Positions 15,308 to 22,521 of a stretch of DNA of 64,000 nucleotides are shown here, one piece after another. Source of the DNA: Chloracidobacterium sp. N. GTDB lineage: Bacteria; Acidobacteriota; Blastocatellia; Chloracidobacteriales; Chloracidobacteriaceae. Location of the stretch: NCBI RefSeq assembly GCF_018304765.1, contig NZ_CP072642.1:975501-1039500 (forward strand), in the 5' to 3' direction. The notes under the pieces are model-generated. The model was not told where the DNA came from, did not search any database, and saw only the letters and a program-made list of their open reading frames with translations. A program made the position numbers and the translations under genes. Position 1 is the first letter of the stretch, and each line of letters starts with the position of its first letter.

Positions 15308-15808
15308 TTATTGCCGCTGGGCTTGTCTGGCGGCGCTCCAGTCTGGCAGCAGGTGTAGCGGACGCACATAGAGTTGGTTGCCTTCAATCCGTACCACTTC
15401 GCATTCTTCACCGGGTTTCAGGTGAGCTCCGCCGAGCGGCAGCGCCGTCCAGACGGTGCCATCGAGTTCCAGTTCCGCTTCGCTGCGCGGCCCCCGGCTT
15501 TCCGTGACCACGACGCCCCGTTTCCCAATCAGGCTGATGTCTCCCAGTGCCGGCAGCGCCGGTGTGGATTGTTCCAGCCATCGCTTGAAGATGCGTCGCG
15601 TGCTCACCGTCAGCAGGGTGGAAACCCCAACGAAGGTGAGCAGTTGGAAGGGAAAGCCAAAACCGAATGCAGCCACCAGGGCGGCGCTGGCGGCTCCAAT
15701 GCCGAACCACAGGGCTATGAACGTCACCGTGGAGACTTCCACCACGGCAAACAAAGCTGCGATCACCAGCCACACCGCCCACAGGTAGTCTGTTATGCCC
15801 TGCATCAT
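15308..15808 (-). CDS. NfeD family membrane protein (short form)
   Basis: 166 residues with two to three N-terminal membrane helices (LWAVWLVIAALFAVVEV, then GIGAASAALVAAFGFGF) and a C-terminal OB-fold of the NfeD type (IGKRGVVVTES, LKPGEECEVVRIEGNQLYV). It lacks the ClpP-like protease part of long NfeD proteins, as is usual when paired with an SPFH gene, which follows after 101 bases. Two consecutive ATGs (15808, 15805) follow AAGGGG at a good distance; a GTG at 15811 is less likely. Probably partners the stomatin-like protein in the membrane. Confidence 0.88.
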   Translation of the reverse strand: MMQGITDYLWAVWLVIAALFAVVEVSTVTFIALWFGIGAASAALVAAFGFGFPFQLLTFVGVSTLLTVSTRRIFKRWLEQSTPALPALGDISLIGKRGVVVTESRGPRSEAELELDGTVWTALPLGGAHLKPGEECEVVRIEGNQLYVRPLHLLPDWSAARQAQRQ

Positions 15809-16013
15809 CACCTGACCCCTTCTTTGCCTGCCCTATACGCCGGCGCCCATCAGAATGTTTTTGCGTTCACCCAATCCAGGGAAGACAGAGAAGTGTAACA
15901 CGCTTTTGTGAGTCACATCACCAGAACACAACGTTGGCGTGACCAGTCCCGAATCCGACCACCCGAAAATCCCCGGGAAACGCCGGATGCCCGGCGTCCG
16001 TGGGAAATCGCAC

Positions 16014-16042
16014 TTGACGTTTCAGCCGGCGGGGCGTAAGAC
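16014..16042 (+). promoter_or_regulatory. candidate sigma70-type promoter for the efflux operon
   Basis: TTGACG (16014-16019) is followed after 17 bases by TAAGAC (16037-16042). The -35 is good and the -10 is poor, so this is tentative. Transcription would begin around 16049, just before the palindrome at 16060-16079, a position where a bound repressor would block elongation or initiation. Confidence 0.35.
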
Positions 16043-16059
16043 TCGGTTTCAAACGAATG

Positions 16060-16079
16060 TTTCAATCAAATGATTGAAA
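16060..16079. promoter_or_regulatory. perfect 20-bp palindrome, likely TetR-family operator
   Basis: TTTCAATCA and TGATTGAAA form perfect 9-base arms around a 2-base centre, 10 bases before the ATG of the TolC-like gene. A further TTTCAAA half-site-like stretch lies just upstream (16047-16053). Size and symmetry fit a TetR-family dimer site, and a CecR-like TetR gene is the third gene downstream. The palindrome is visible directly; the regulator assignment is inference. Confidence 0.6.
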
Positions 16080-16089
16080 TGGTGAGCTT

Positions 16090-17967
16090 ATGAACATTCC
16101 TCGTTACTGCACATGGGCCGGGCTGGCGCTCATCATGGTTGCCATGACAACCTCCCTGACGCGCGCCCAGGATGAACTGCCGGCTTCCAGTCCGGCTTCC
16201 GGCGAACTGGCACACCAGGCCATTGCCGGCATCGTACGGACGGCGGCGCAGGCGCCGGCCGCATCCGCAACGACGCCCGATCAGGACCTCATCGAGCAGG
16301 CACGTCGCCAGATCGCCATCGAACCACGGGTGGGCGTCGTGCCGGGGCTGAGCCGTCCACTGGCGTTGCGCGAGGCCATTCTTATGGCGTTGCGGGCCAA
16401 TCCAGACGTGGAAATTCAGCGGATTGCCGTACAGCAGGCGGCATTTGATGTCAACCGCACCAAGGGGTTTTACGACGTGGTGCTGACAAACCAGTTTGCC
16501 TACTCGGCGCTCCGCAATCCGGCCGTCAATCCCTTTGCCGGAGCCGATGAAAACGGAGCCGTCGAGATTCGCGCGGCACAAAACACCTTTGCCTTCACCA
16601 AGCCGCTGATGACCGGCGGGCGCGTCGGGGCCGAGTTCACCGTGGCGCGGCAGGACACAACCAACATCTTTGCCGGGGTCAATCCGCTGTTCAGTTCCCA
16701 GTTGACCTTCACCTTCACGCAGCCGCTGTTTCGCAACTTTCGGACAGATGAATCCCGCCGCCAGATTGAACTGGCCAAAAAGCGGCTGACGCTGTCGGAT
16801 TCGCAGTTCCGGCAGCGCGTCATAGACATCGTGGCGCAGGTGCAGTCAGCGTACTGGGATTTGGTCTTTGCCCGCCGCGAAGTCGAAATCCGCGCTGAAG
16901 CCGTGGCGCTGGCGCGCATCCAGCTTGAACAGAACCGGCGCTTCGTCGAGGCCGGTACGGCGGCTCCCGTAGAGATCGTATCGGTCGAAGCCCAGCTCGA
17001 ACAGCGCCAGGAAGAGTTCCTGCTGGCGCTGGAAAATCTGACGCGCGTGGAAAATGGACTCAAGTCCCTCATCCTTGACCAGCGCCAGGCGCCCCTGTGG
17101 CAGGAAGCCATCGTGCCCACTGAACAGGTCAACCTCGAACCGGTCAACATTTCACTTGATGAAGCCGTGCGGGCCGCGCTCGCCAAGCGGCCGGAAATGG
17201 AGCAGTTCGACATTCAGAAGACAGCCAACGAGATTGACATCCAGTTTTTCCGCGACCAGCTCCGTCCGCAGTTGGATTTCGTCGGTTCCTACAGCTTGCA
17301 GGGGCTGGCCGGGACGCCGCTCCCCATCACGACCAATCCTTTTGCCGGTGGTTTCAATACGGCCGTGCTGGAAAGGTTGAACCTCCTTTCGGCGCAGTCC
17401 GGGCTGGGGCCCGTCATCGTGCCGCCGCCGGCCAACCAGACACCGGGCGTGTTCATCGGCGGGTTTGGGCGCAATCTCAGCAATCTGTTCACCAAGAACT
17501 TTTATGGCGTGCGGGTTGGCGTCAACATGAGCTTCACGCTCAACAACCGTACGACCCAGGGCGCGCTCGGCCGCGCTCTGGCCCAGGACCGGCTCATTGC
17601 CGCCCAGCGCCAGCGTTTTGAAACCCAGGTGGAAACGGAAGTGCGTAACGCGCTTCAGTCCGTGCAAACGGCGCTGCGGCGGGTGCAGGCGGCGCGGGCC
17701 TCACGGGTGGCGGCCGAGGCGCAGTACGCCAGCGAAATGCGCCGCTATCAGGTGGGTGAGTCCACGAACTTCCTCGTGCTTGACCGGCAAAATGCCCTGT
17801 CTGCGGCGCGGGGACGGGAAGTGCGCGCTCTGACGGACTACAACAAGGCGGTCGTCGCCCTTCAGCGGGCGATGTCCACCACGCTGGACGCCAACAGTCT
17901 GACCGTCAAGCCGGCGGATGGGTCACGTCCGGCGGATGTACATCCCGATGTCGAGCCTACGCCCTGA
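16090..17967 (+). CDS. TolC-family outer-membrane efflux protein
   Basis: Outer-membrane channel of a type I export or drug-efflux route. The 625-residue protein begins with a signal peptide (cleavage near TRA-Q). Two repeats of the outer-membrane efflux fold follow, rich in long helical segments such as VIDIVAQVQSAYWDLVFARREV (about residues 250-270) and a matching C-terminal one (VQTALRRVQAARASRVAAEAQ). The N-terminal motif LALREAILMALRANPDVE is typical. No membrane-fusion protein is encoded next to it. The MFS gene starts 10 bases after the stop, so they are cotranscribed. Probably controlled by the palindrome upstream of its start. Confidence 0.92.
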   Translation: MNIPRYCTWAGLALIMVAMTTSLTRAQDELPASSPASGELAHQAIAGIVRTAAQAPAASATTPDQDLIEQARRQIAIEPRVGVVPGLSRPLALREAILMALRANPDVEIQRIAVQQAAFDVNRTKGFYDVVLTNQFAYSALRNPAVNPFAGADENGAVEIRAAQNTFAFTKPLMTGGRVGAEFTVARQDTTNIFAGVNPLFSSQLTFTFTQPLFRNFRTDESRRQIELAKKRLTLSDSQFRQRVIDIVAQVQSAYWDLVFARREVEIRAEAVALARIQLEQNRRFVEAGTAAPVEIVSVEAQLEQRQEEFLLALENLTRVENGLKSLILDQRQAPLWQEAIVPTEQVNLEPVNISLDEAVRAALAKRPEMEQFDIQKTANEIDIQFFRDQLRPQLDFVGSYSLQGLAGTPLPITTNPFAGGFNTAVLERLNLLSAQSGLGPVIVPPPANQTPGVFIGGFGRNLSNLFTKNFYGVRVGVNMSFTLNNRTTQGALGRALAQDRLIAAQRQRFETQVETEVRNALQSVQTALRRVQAARASRVAAEAQYASEMRRYQVGESTNFLVLDRQNALSAARGREVRALTDYNKAVVALQRAMSTTLDANSLTVKPADGSRPADVHPDVEPTP

Positions 17968-17977
17968 GCCACTTCCA

Positions 17978-19294
17978 ATGAACACCATGCGTGGTTGGCT
18001 TCAGCGCCCGTTTCTGCGCCAGTGGGCGGCTGACTGGTCGCCGCTGCGGAGACGTGCCTTCCGTCTCTACTTTGGCGGACAGGCCGTGTCGCTGCTGGGC
18101 ACCTGGATGCAGATTACGGCGCAGTCGTGGGTGGTATGGGAACTGAGTCACTCGATGCAGGCCCAGGGCGTTGTGGCACTGCTCGGTTCCTTGCCACTGA
18201 TACTGTTGGCACCGTGGGCCGGCGCGGCGGCTGACCGTTTCGACCGCCGGAAACTGCTCATTCTGGCGCAGGTGGCCGCGATGCTGCTGGCCTTTGCGCT
18301 CGCCCTGCTGGTGCAGACGGGGTGGATTCGGCTCTGGCACGTCTATGGACTGTCGTTTCTGCTTGGCGTCGTCGCGGCGGTTGAAATGCCGGCCCAACAG
18401 GCTTTCATCGGCGATCTGGTCGGGATGTCCGAAGTTCGCAAGGCGTTGGCGCTCAACGGCATTATCGTCCAGCTTGGGCGGACGGTGGGCCCAACGCTTG
18501 CCGGCTGGGCGATTGCCCACATCGGCGTGGCCGAAGCCTTCTGGGTCAATGGGGTGAGTTTTCTCGCGGTTATTGCCAGCCTGCTGGCCATCCGCAGCGT
18601 CACCACGGAGCGGGCTTCCCAGACCGGCGCCAGTCCGGGTGGTTTTGGTGAGGCCGTCCGGTATCTGCGCTCCCAACCACGCCTGCTCGATCTGCTGGCG
18701 TTCACCATGCTGGCCGCCTTTTTCGTCCTGTCGAACCTGACGATTTACCCGGCCCTGGCCACGGTTGTCCTCCGTGGGGATTCCCGCACCCTGGGCTGGC
18801 TGCTGGGGGCTTCGGGGGTGGGGGCGCTCATTGGCTCCGTGCTGGTGACGCACCTGAGCCGGGCCATTCCACGGGTGGGGGCGGCGCTGGTCGGGTGTAC
18901 GGTGTGGGCCGGCGTCATGGTGGTGTGCAATTCGTGGAGTCGTACGCTCCCGACGGCGGTTTCGTGTATTGTGGCAACGGGGCTGGCCGTTCCCTTCATT
19001 TTCACGACGGCCAACGGATTGACGCAGATGCTCGCTCCAGTGCAGATGCGCGGGCGGCTGTTGAGCATCCTGCTGATGGCCGGCTTTGGTCTGCAACCGG
19101 TTGTGGCGATTGGCATTGGCTGGATTGGGGACCGGTTTGGTCCGTCCCGGGCCCTGCTCGTCAACGGTCTCTGCCTGATTGGCGGCGGACTGCTGATGCT
19201 GGGGCGTCCCGGACTCCTGGGCTGGCAGGTCGGCGTGGCGGCGGCCACGGGGGAAACCACACCGTCGGGCGTGGCACCGGTTCGGCCCGCGTAA
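17978..19294 (+). CDS. MFS transporter (MFS_3/EntS-like exporter)
   Basis: A 438-residue inner-membrane carrier with about 12 helices. It belongs to the branch that opens with FRLYFGGQAVSLLGTWMQI and AQSWVVWELS, as in the EntS and macrolide-efflux group. The loop between helices 2 and 3 reads AGAAADRFDRRKLL. The frame is open to 17918 inside the TolC gene, but the ATG at 17978 gives the normal short N terminus and avoids overlap. It likely exports a small molecule, with the TolC-like channel completing the route or acting separately. Followed after 70 bases by the TetR gene. Confidence 0.92.
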   Translation: MNTMRGWLQRPFLRQWAADWSPLRRRAFRLYFGGQAVSLLGTWMQITAQSWVVWELSHSMQAQGVVALLGSLPLILLAPWAGAAADRFDRRKLLILAQVAAMLLAFALALLVQTGWIRLWHVYGLSFLLGVVAAVEMPAQQAFIGDLVGMSEVRKALALNGIIVQLGRTVGPTLAGWAIAHIGVAEAFWVNGVSFLAVIASLLAIRSVTTERASQTGASPGGFGEAVRYLRSQPRLLDLLAFTMLAAFFVLSNLTIYPALATVVLRGDSRTLGWLLGASGVGALIGSVLVTHLSRAIPRVGAALVGCTVWAGVMVVCNSWSRTLPTAVSCIVATGLAVPFIFTTANGLTQMLAPVQMRGRLLSILLMAGFGLQPVVAIGIGWIGDRFGPSRALLVNGLCLIGGGLLMLGRPGLLGWQVGVAAATGETTPSGVAPVRPA

Positions 19295-19316
19295 ATCCGC
19301 CAAATGGCGTCAACTC

Positions 19317-19330
19317 CGGGCGCGCGCCCG
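19317..19330. repeat. 14-bp fully self-complementary GC sequence
   Basis: CGGGCGCGCGCCCG lies between the MFS stop and the TetR start. It could form a small hairpin, but there is no T tract, so a terminator is not supported. It may have no function. Confidence 0.3.
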
Positions 19331-19364
19331 ACATTCTGATCTGGAACCATGGTTGTGAAGCGCG

Positions 19365-20192
19365 ATGCATGAACCTGTGAAATCTATGGCTCAAGCCAAC
19401 GCCGGCCGTCAGGCTGTGGACGCTGTCAACACACTCAAGCCGCCGAAACGGAAGGCAAAACGCGCGGCCGAGGGCGAAACAGCCGATGCCAAGACCCGCC
19501 TGCTGGTGGTGGCGGAGCGGATGTTCGCTGAGCGGGGCTTTGCCTGTACGAGCGTCCGCGATCTGGCCGCCGAAGCCGGCGTCAACATTGCGGCTGTCAA
19601 CTATCACTTCCGCAGCAAGGAAGAGCTGTACCTGGAAACCCTGCGTTATGCGATGCGGCGCTCAAAGGACATCACTCCGCGTTTTGCGCGCATTCTGCGG
19701 CAGGCCCAGCAGGTGGGCACGCCAGAGGCCGCACAGCAGGGCATTGTGCACTTCATCGAGACCTTCATCAGCCATCTCTATGGTCAACCGGCCGGAACAG
19801 ACTACTCGGCAGCGTTGATGTCGCACGAGATGCTCCATCCGACCGGCGCCCTTGACATCGTGGTGCAGGAATTCATCCAGCCCCGCTTCGAGATTCTCAT
19901 GGCGCTGATCCGGCTGGCGCGCCCCGATCTCAAGCCGGACCTCGATGTAGCTTTCCATGCCTTCAGCATCGTTGGGCAGTGCCTGCACATGCACTTCTGC
20001 CGTCCCATCGTTCTGCAACTGACGGGAGAAGGGAAGCTGACGGCGCGTTTCCTGCGTCGCATGGCGCGGCACATTGCCGGGTTTTCCATCAGGGGGTTGG
20101 CGGCGGTGCCGCCGCGGCTGGCGGGGACTCCGGGCGCAGGTGGGGAAACAGAATCACATCCCGAATCGAACGCTGATTCGTCAGCAGCATAA
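19365..20192 (+). CDS. TetR-family transcriptional regulator (CecR/DUF1956-like)
   Basis: Dimeric repressor of 275 residues (268 if the ATG at 19386 is used). A basic N-terminal extension (KPPKRKAKR) precedes the helix-turn-helix ([20 protein letters not shown], then [11 protein letters not shown]). The ligand-binding half has [13 protein letters not shown] and [13 protein letters not shown], close to the DUF1956 C-terminal domain of CecR, which controls efflux genes in Enterobacteria. It is third in the TolC-MFS operon and probably represses it through the palindrome at 16060-16079. The last 34 residues are a low-complexity tail that overlaps the 3' end of lysS by 104 bases on the opposite strand. 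Confidence 0.9.
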
Positions 20193-22491: not shown

Positions 22492-22521
22492 GAAAAAAGG
22501 CGATGGGGAATACCCATCGCC
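22492..22521 (-). terminator. rho-independent terminator of the second TonB receptor gene
   Basis: On the minus strand, a perfect 9-bp stem GGCGATGGG/CCCATCGCC with a 5-base loop (arms at 22513-22521 and 22499-22507) is followed directly by TTTTTT. It sits 28 bases after the receptor stop codon. This is the clearest intrinsic terminator in the window. Confidence 0.9.

Follow-up and report, generated by a model that had tools for sequence, protein, structure and literature searches.

Repressors of the TetR family may occupy overlapping palindromes as dimers, as described for QacR, CprB, SlmA and DarR in the accessible parts of two sources (PMC6018408, PMC10636190). The DUF1956 protein PhlH of Pseudomonas is, according to the available part of its description, released from DNA by hydrophobic phenolics (PMC11878095). 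In Anabaena, the accessible account of the DevBCA-HgdD system presents a MacB-like ABC exporter with its membrane fusion protein (MFP), which uses a TolC homologue encoded elsewhere (PMC8277102).

The nearest described regulator is E. coli CecR (YbiH), which has in common with the regulator discussed below both the TetR_N and CecR_C domains and the nearest solved fold. PsrA (PA3006, PDB 2fbq) also has a related fold, being less similar to the regulator than CecR and PhlH; it recognizes a GAAAC-N4-GTTTC-like operator and governs a fatty acid regulon.

The window, i.e. the whole stretch of 64,000 nucleotides of Chloracidobacterium DNA analysed here, carries an operon encoding a TolC-like outer membrane channel, an MFS exporter and a CecR-type TetR regulator (Table 1). 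We hold it highly probable that the palindrome preceding the first gene forms the promoter-distal half of an operator read by the product of the third, a repressor that would act on its own operon, control a devC-devA-devB operon elsewhere in the genome and yield to a ligand. The following sections detail the double site, its second target and its distribution among relatives.

The tolC-MFS-tetR operon and its upstream double site

The genes are closely spaced, with 10 bp between tolC and the MFS gene and 70-91 bp between the latter and tetR, a gap at which co-transcription of the two is likely. The order tolC-MFS-tetR and its flanking genes, nfeD and lysS, are the same in six other genomes of the genus. 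tetR and the convergent lysS share 104 bp at their 3' ends (window 20089-20192), and the matches of the two proteins overlap in these six genomes as well.

The initial annotation had read the third gene as a CecR-like TetR regulator, and domain analysis bears this out: the protein scores 58.2 bits for TetR_N and 79.2 bits for CecR_C (PF09209), the Pfam cut-off being 24. Six TetR_N proteins are encoded in the window genome, and in each of the seven genus genomes the third gene's protein alone matches CecR_C. The nearest folds to its structural model (mean pLDDT 80.9) are the Salmonella TetR structure 1t33 and E. coli CecR 9i1x, which take ranks 1-3 with probability 1.00. PhlH (PDB 7e1n/7e1l) is also among the closest solved folds and is the regulator's best PDB match. 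With 67.9 bits against a cut-off of 365 for the NCBIfam CecR equivalog NF008587, the regulator is not a CecR orthologue by the NCBIfam rule.

Table 1. Features of the operon and of the region preceding it, in window coordinates
Feature	Position	Strand	Remarks
-35-like hexamer TTGACG	16014..16019	+	TTGACG in 7/7 genus upstream regions
-10-like hexamer TAAGAC	16037..16042	+	17 bp after the -35-like hexamer; TARRAn here in 7/7
Composite operator (predicted)	16047..16079	.	two overlapping sites 13 bp apart; kept in 7/7 genus genomes
Site 1, core AAACGAATGTTT	16051..16062	.	18-bp site with 0-1 mismatch to TTNAAWCANNTGWTTNAA in 7/7
Site 2 (annotated palindrome)	16060..16079	.	core 16064-16075; 18-bp site with 0 mismatches in 2/7, 1 in 2/7, 2 in 3/7
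tolC-like outer membrane efflux protein (OEP)	16090..17967	+	625 aa; Pfam PF02321, E 1e-36
MFS exporter (MFS_3)	17978..19294	+	438 aa; Pfam PF05977, E 2.1e-53
CecR-type TetR regulator	19386..20192	+	ATG 19386, or 19365; start picked by alignment; Pfam TetR_N + CecR_C

The inverted repeat TTTCAATCA-AA-TGATTGAAA is separated by 10 bases (16080-16089) from the tolC ATG, as had been annotated. Its description as a perfect 20-bp palindrome is correct for the two 9-bp arms, but the central AA is not self-complementary and the element is strictly a 9+2+9 repeat. It is real and not a product of chance: at up to 3 mismatches no other match is found in the window and none in 100 shuffles, and in the 3.7-Mb, two-contig genome it is unique below 3 mismatches, two other places matching at 3. 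A search of a plasmid collection found no similar DNA. Its AT content is the highest among the 11 listed inverted repeats of the window with 9-bp arms, some of these being alternative registers of a single repeat. Further perfect inverted repeats, with arms of at least 9 bp and richer in G+C, lie at 22498, 41043, 48808 and 58360; these are perhaps terminators or other operators.

Alignment of the seven genus upstream regions reveals four kept blocks: TTGACG, the -10-like TARRAn, a 33-bp block and a GTGA ahead of the start codon. A strict sigma-70 consensus scan of positions 15800-19450 returns 0 promoter-like sites, so the promoter call rests on conservation. From the position of the -10-like hexamer, the transcription start should lie near 16049, and the operator would therefore cover the initiation region. 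The 33-bp block, TTTCAAACGAATGTTTCAATCAAATGATTGAAA in the window, is composed of two overlapping TTnAAWCAnnTGWTTnAA sites spaced 13 bp centre to centre. Site 2 is the palindrome; site 1, centred 13 bp upstream and overlapping it, is absent from the initial annotation. The proposal that the palindrome serves as operator is well supported by the comparison, with the correction that its 20 bp are the right half only of a 33-bp double site. A scan of orthologous operons, which had been suggested as a check and in which absence of the motif would have told against the proposal, finds the composite before tolC in all seven genomes but the palindrome perfect in only two; what has been kept, as judged from this alignment, is the composite and not the perfect palindrome.

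An inverted repeat this close to a start codon might also be an RNA hairpin in the tolC leader, involved in translation or transcript control, instead of DNA bound by a protein. Its arms can pair, the site-2 hairpin is present in the predicted fold of four of the seven species, and one leader (L044) folds better than its shuffles (z -3.44). The other six give z values between -0.40 and -1.58, two hairpins are shifted and one species (L041) loses the hairpin. Moreover, a hairpin leaves unexplained the 13-bp phasing and the presence of the motif before devC, E. coli cecR and the tetR genes of relatives, and we consider this reading very improbable.

A probable second target before devC-devA-devB

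The palindrome had also been put forward as a motif for finding other targets, and here the expectation came true. The own genome was searched with the relaxed 18-bp motif at up to 2 mismatches, against a control pattern. The motif matches 12 places, 9 of them at 2 mismatches, and the control pattern 6, none at 1 mismatch or fewer. Two places are perfect: the window site and G000:C1:1104658-1104675, about 113 kb from the palindrome, before a devC-devA-devB operon. Four match loci were inspected, one of which (L059) is this second target. The other three were rejected as targets: L061 and L064 lie inside long ORFs, and L067 overlies the 3' end of one. The sequence of this last match, at G000:C2:770352-770369, is TTCAAACGTTCGTTTGAA, which closely resembles the motif and is itself a perfect inverted repeat.

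The second operon encodes an ABC permease, an ATPase and an MFP; by Pfam, it assembles an FtsX/MacB-type permease, an ABC ATPase and an HlyD-type fusion protein (L182). The perfect site is preceded by TTGACA-N17-TAACTT and ends 37 bases before the permease ATG. It is found before devC in all seven genus genomes, with 0 mismatches in four, 1 in two and 2 in one, at 31-63 bases from the ATG. Its left 13-bp neighbour has degenerated to 3-5 mismatches in all seven, so this operator would consist of one strong site and a half-site remnant. Genus-wide, the motif has 22 matches at up to 1 mismatch, 17 of them in the tolC and devC operators, as compared to 2 matches in total for the control. The other five, which lie outside both operators, were set aside; one of them (G006:C5) is inside a long ORF whose start reads, by eye, like a membrane fusion protein.

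The permease of the second operon is 69-84% identical to the devC products encoded next to tetR in relatives. The gene order, of which the motif search made no use, thus confirms the motif's prediction. The own-genome devCAB operon, as judged from the ORF list only, contains no outer membrane factor, and the devCAB loci of the six other genus genomes show no TolC/OMF match over 80 residues. Comparison of these sites suggests that one small regulator probably controls both exporter operons, and that the regulon is very probably wider than the TolC-MFS-TetR operon.

The motif in relatives and distant homologues

In family- and order-level relatives, tetR is immediately preceded by the motif, which forms arrays of two or three sites phased at 13 bp. 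Such arrays precede tetR in L046, L047, L048, L049 and L051, and a weaker one is seen in L053; the upstream stretch of L052 ends at a contig edge. The class-level L050 has one good site before tetR. Among more distant loci, L054 exhibits a single site that is perfect, L055 and L056 each have one with 2 mismatches, and L057 has none. In L047-L049, L051 and L052, tetR is directly followed by devC, devA and devB, while in L046 devC reaches the contig end.

The window's TolC was searched in eight relatives. In two of them (G007 and G009), tetR stands at the head of devCAB; the homologue nearest to the window's TolC (57% and 56%, respectively) is encoded elsewhere and its gene possesses its own TTGAC element, followed by two cores 13 bp apart and a weaker third (L220, L224). 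The tolC-devCAB pair is thus observed in three genera, with tetR residing in differing operons. In both genomes tolC sits behind a gene that reads by eye like an RND pump, and the array appears to belong to an internal promoter of its own; one gene of the RND-like cluster may therefore be under a second regulator. For the other six relatives, the stretch examined around the closest TolC (42-48% or less) contains neither a perfect core nor a 13-bp pair (L227-L232). At up to 1 mismatch, the 18-bp motif is matched 20 times in G007 and 23 times in G009 and the control once in each, an excess that perhaps reflects a larger regulon or composition. In the AT-rich order-level genomes, single matches are uninformative because control counts are as high (24 against 43 in G011).

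A remote set was assembled from the best 80 of 558 homologues, chosen by protein (29-41% identity in the best segment). Within 300 bp upstream, AAWCANNTGWTT occurs at up to 1 mismatch in 58 of these 80, with an average of 4.0 loci in shuffles, in a set that favours similar DNA reading since the two selection peptides include the recognition helix; 22 of the 80 have no motif there. The upstream regions contain 96 matches in 23,555 bp, versus 47 in the 656,085 bp that make up the remainder of these loci. Pairs within 60 bp number 41, with a spacing of 13 bp in 30 and of 26 bp in 9, while 30 rounds of shuffling produced no pair at 13 bp. As one site supplies two bases of the next, the test was repeated with the 18-bp site fixed and its flanks shuffled: a second site lies at 13 bp in 27 of 59 anchored loci (expected mean 0.155, maximum 2 in 200 rounds), and in 48 of 59 at up to 2 mismatches (mean 1.06, maximum 5). 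devC is the first recognized downstream gene in 31 of the 80 remote loci; because tetR-devC is common in other phyla too, we infer that in the genus tetR moved from devCAB to tolC-MFS.

These pairs bear on a simpler account, in which the perfect palindrome of site 2 is by itself the operator, site 1 a chance resemblance and the regulation purely local. Such an account would suit the window genome, in which site 2 has 0 mismatches and site 1 has 1, as well as the one core before E. coli cecR and a devC operator close to a single site. Across the genus, however, site 1 is better kept than site 2 (0-1 mismatch in 7/7), the 13-bp pairs of distant homologues are far above control, and the second target is conserved. 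We regard the single site as an unlikely explanation and retain the double one.

Sixteen other TetR upstream regions served as negatives, of which 5 belong to the own-genome TetRs outside the single CecR_C match and 11 to weak matches of the same search that are not domain-defined. They contain no perfect core and one core at 1 mismatch (1/16), and sites paired at 13 or 26 bp are absent even when 2 mismatches are allowed. This result touches the choice of regulator, as another TetR of the genome, and not the third gene's product, might read the operator. Six TetR_N proteins are encoded, and the tetR of the second contig lies next to devC, devA and devB paralogues, in an operon that also encodes an outer membrane factor (L183, G000:C2:540000-550000). 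This tetR, however, is preceded by a different inverted repeat, TGAACGCCGTTCA; no copy of the motif within 1 mismatch is present in the 300 bp preceding the domain match of any of the five other TetR genes of the genome, and across phyla the motif goes with CecR_C genes. A different TetR protein is thus a most doubtful candidate, and the operator is probably read by the CecR_C repressor of the third gene, the binding and repression being putative.

A phylum sample, made of the 27 best-scoring loci by CecR_C alone with genus members excluded (L245 and L250 being G007 and G009 again), shows the core at up to 1 mismatch in 16 of 27 and a 13- or 26-bp pair in 4 of 27. Among its loci with an N[IV]AA[VI]NY[HY]F recognition helix, 8 of 11 have no core. 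Proteins with an NSALV-type helix often go with related cores at other spacings. Most of these relatives (L256, L257, L260-L262, L265-L267, L269-L271) have AAWCGnTTGATT- or AATCAnnCGATT-like cores, in pairs at e.g. 23-33 bp and not 13. The phasing is therefore a property of some CecR_C proteins only.

A broader proposal is advanced tentatively, and on balance we lean slightly against it. A CecR_C-type TetR subfamily spread over many phyla might use 13-bp-phased operator arrays, in which neighbouring dimers would share a TTnAA box and be stacked alongside one another, nearly perpendicular; cooperativity would be set by how many units there are (1 to 3 or more). One repressor would then unite a far-apart outer membrane channel with an ABC-MFP pair, and the regulator gene would have moved between operons in the genus.

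Proposed regulation and comparison with described systems

In the mechanism that we favour, repressor dimers would occupy the two overlapping sites, 13 bp apart, over the predicted transcription start and block initiation of tolC-MFS-tetR, resulting in autorepression. The same repressor would act on devC-devA-devB through one strong site and the remnant half-site. A ligand, probably hydrophobic, would release it and both operons would be induced together, supplying the outer membrane channel, the MFS exporter and the ABC-MFP part of a tripartite pump. The hydrophobic character of the ligand is suggested by PhlH, which binds hydrophobic phenolics in the available part of its description (PMC11878095). 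The ABC-MFP pair of the second operon could be completed by the TolC of the first, the role that HgdD has for DevBCA in Anabaena.

Two points go further than the hypothesis of the initial annotation, namely the 13-bp array and the regulon split between tolC and devCAB. What was a guess about a palindrome becomes an operator code that can be tested in a widespread TetR subfamily. A shared operator also predicts the unlinked TolC with which a given DevCAB exporter works, something that sequence does not readily disclose. Neither a 13-bp-phased TetR operator nor this repeat spacing for TetR dimers was found in the literature searched, which did not cover the primary FrrA/CecR papers, and a prior description is possible.

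The closest parallel is E. coli CecR, with which the locus shares a AATCAnnTGATT-like core: AATCAAATGATT here and AATCATTTGATT upstream of E. coli cecR, where 16 bases separate core and ATG. In the accessible description of cecR-ybhGFSR, an HlyD-ABC exporter is under CecR, and an ABC-MFP exporter is likewise the predicted target here. In contrast to that arrangement, the ABC-MFP operon here lies in trans and tetR is inside the TolC-MFS operon; furthermore, E. coli cecR has one core and Chloracidobacterium a double site. As for PhlH, the available part of its description reports regulation of phlG and not of an exporter (PMC11878095), whereas the candidate targets here are exporter operons. The accessible account of Anabaena DevBCA-HgdD describes no shared repressor (PMC8277102), while here a shared operator links both loci.

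In the available accounts of QacR, CprB and DarR, two dimers occupy overlapping palindromic sites of one operator, and the two overlapping sites 13 bp apart described here are of this kind. QacR dimers are found there on opposite sides of the DNA, whereas B-DNA arithmetic, used in place of a structure, converts the 13-bp offset to 1.24 turns and 44 angstroms along the axis, which would set neighbouring dimers at about 86 degrees. Finally, unlike the pairs of QacR, CprB and DarR, arrays of three sites occur in the relatives of the regulator.
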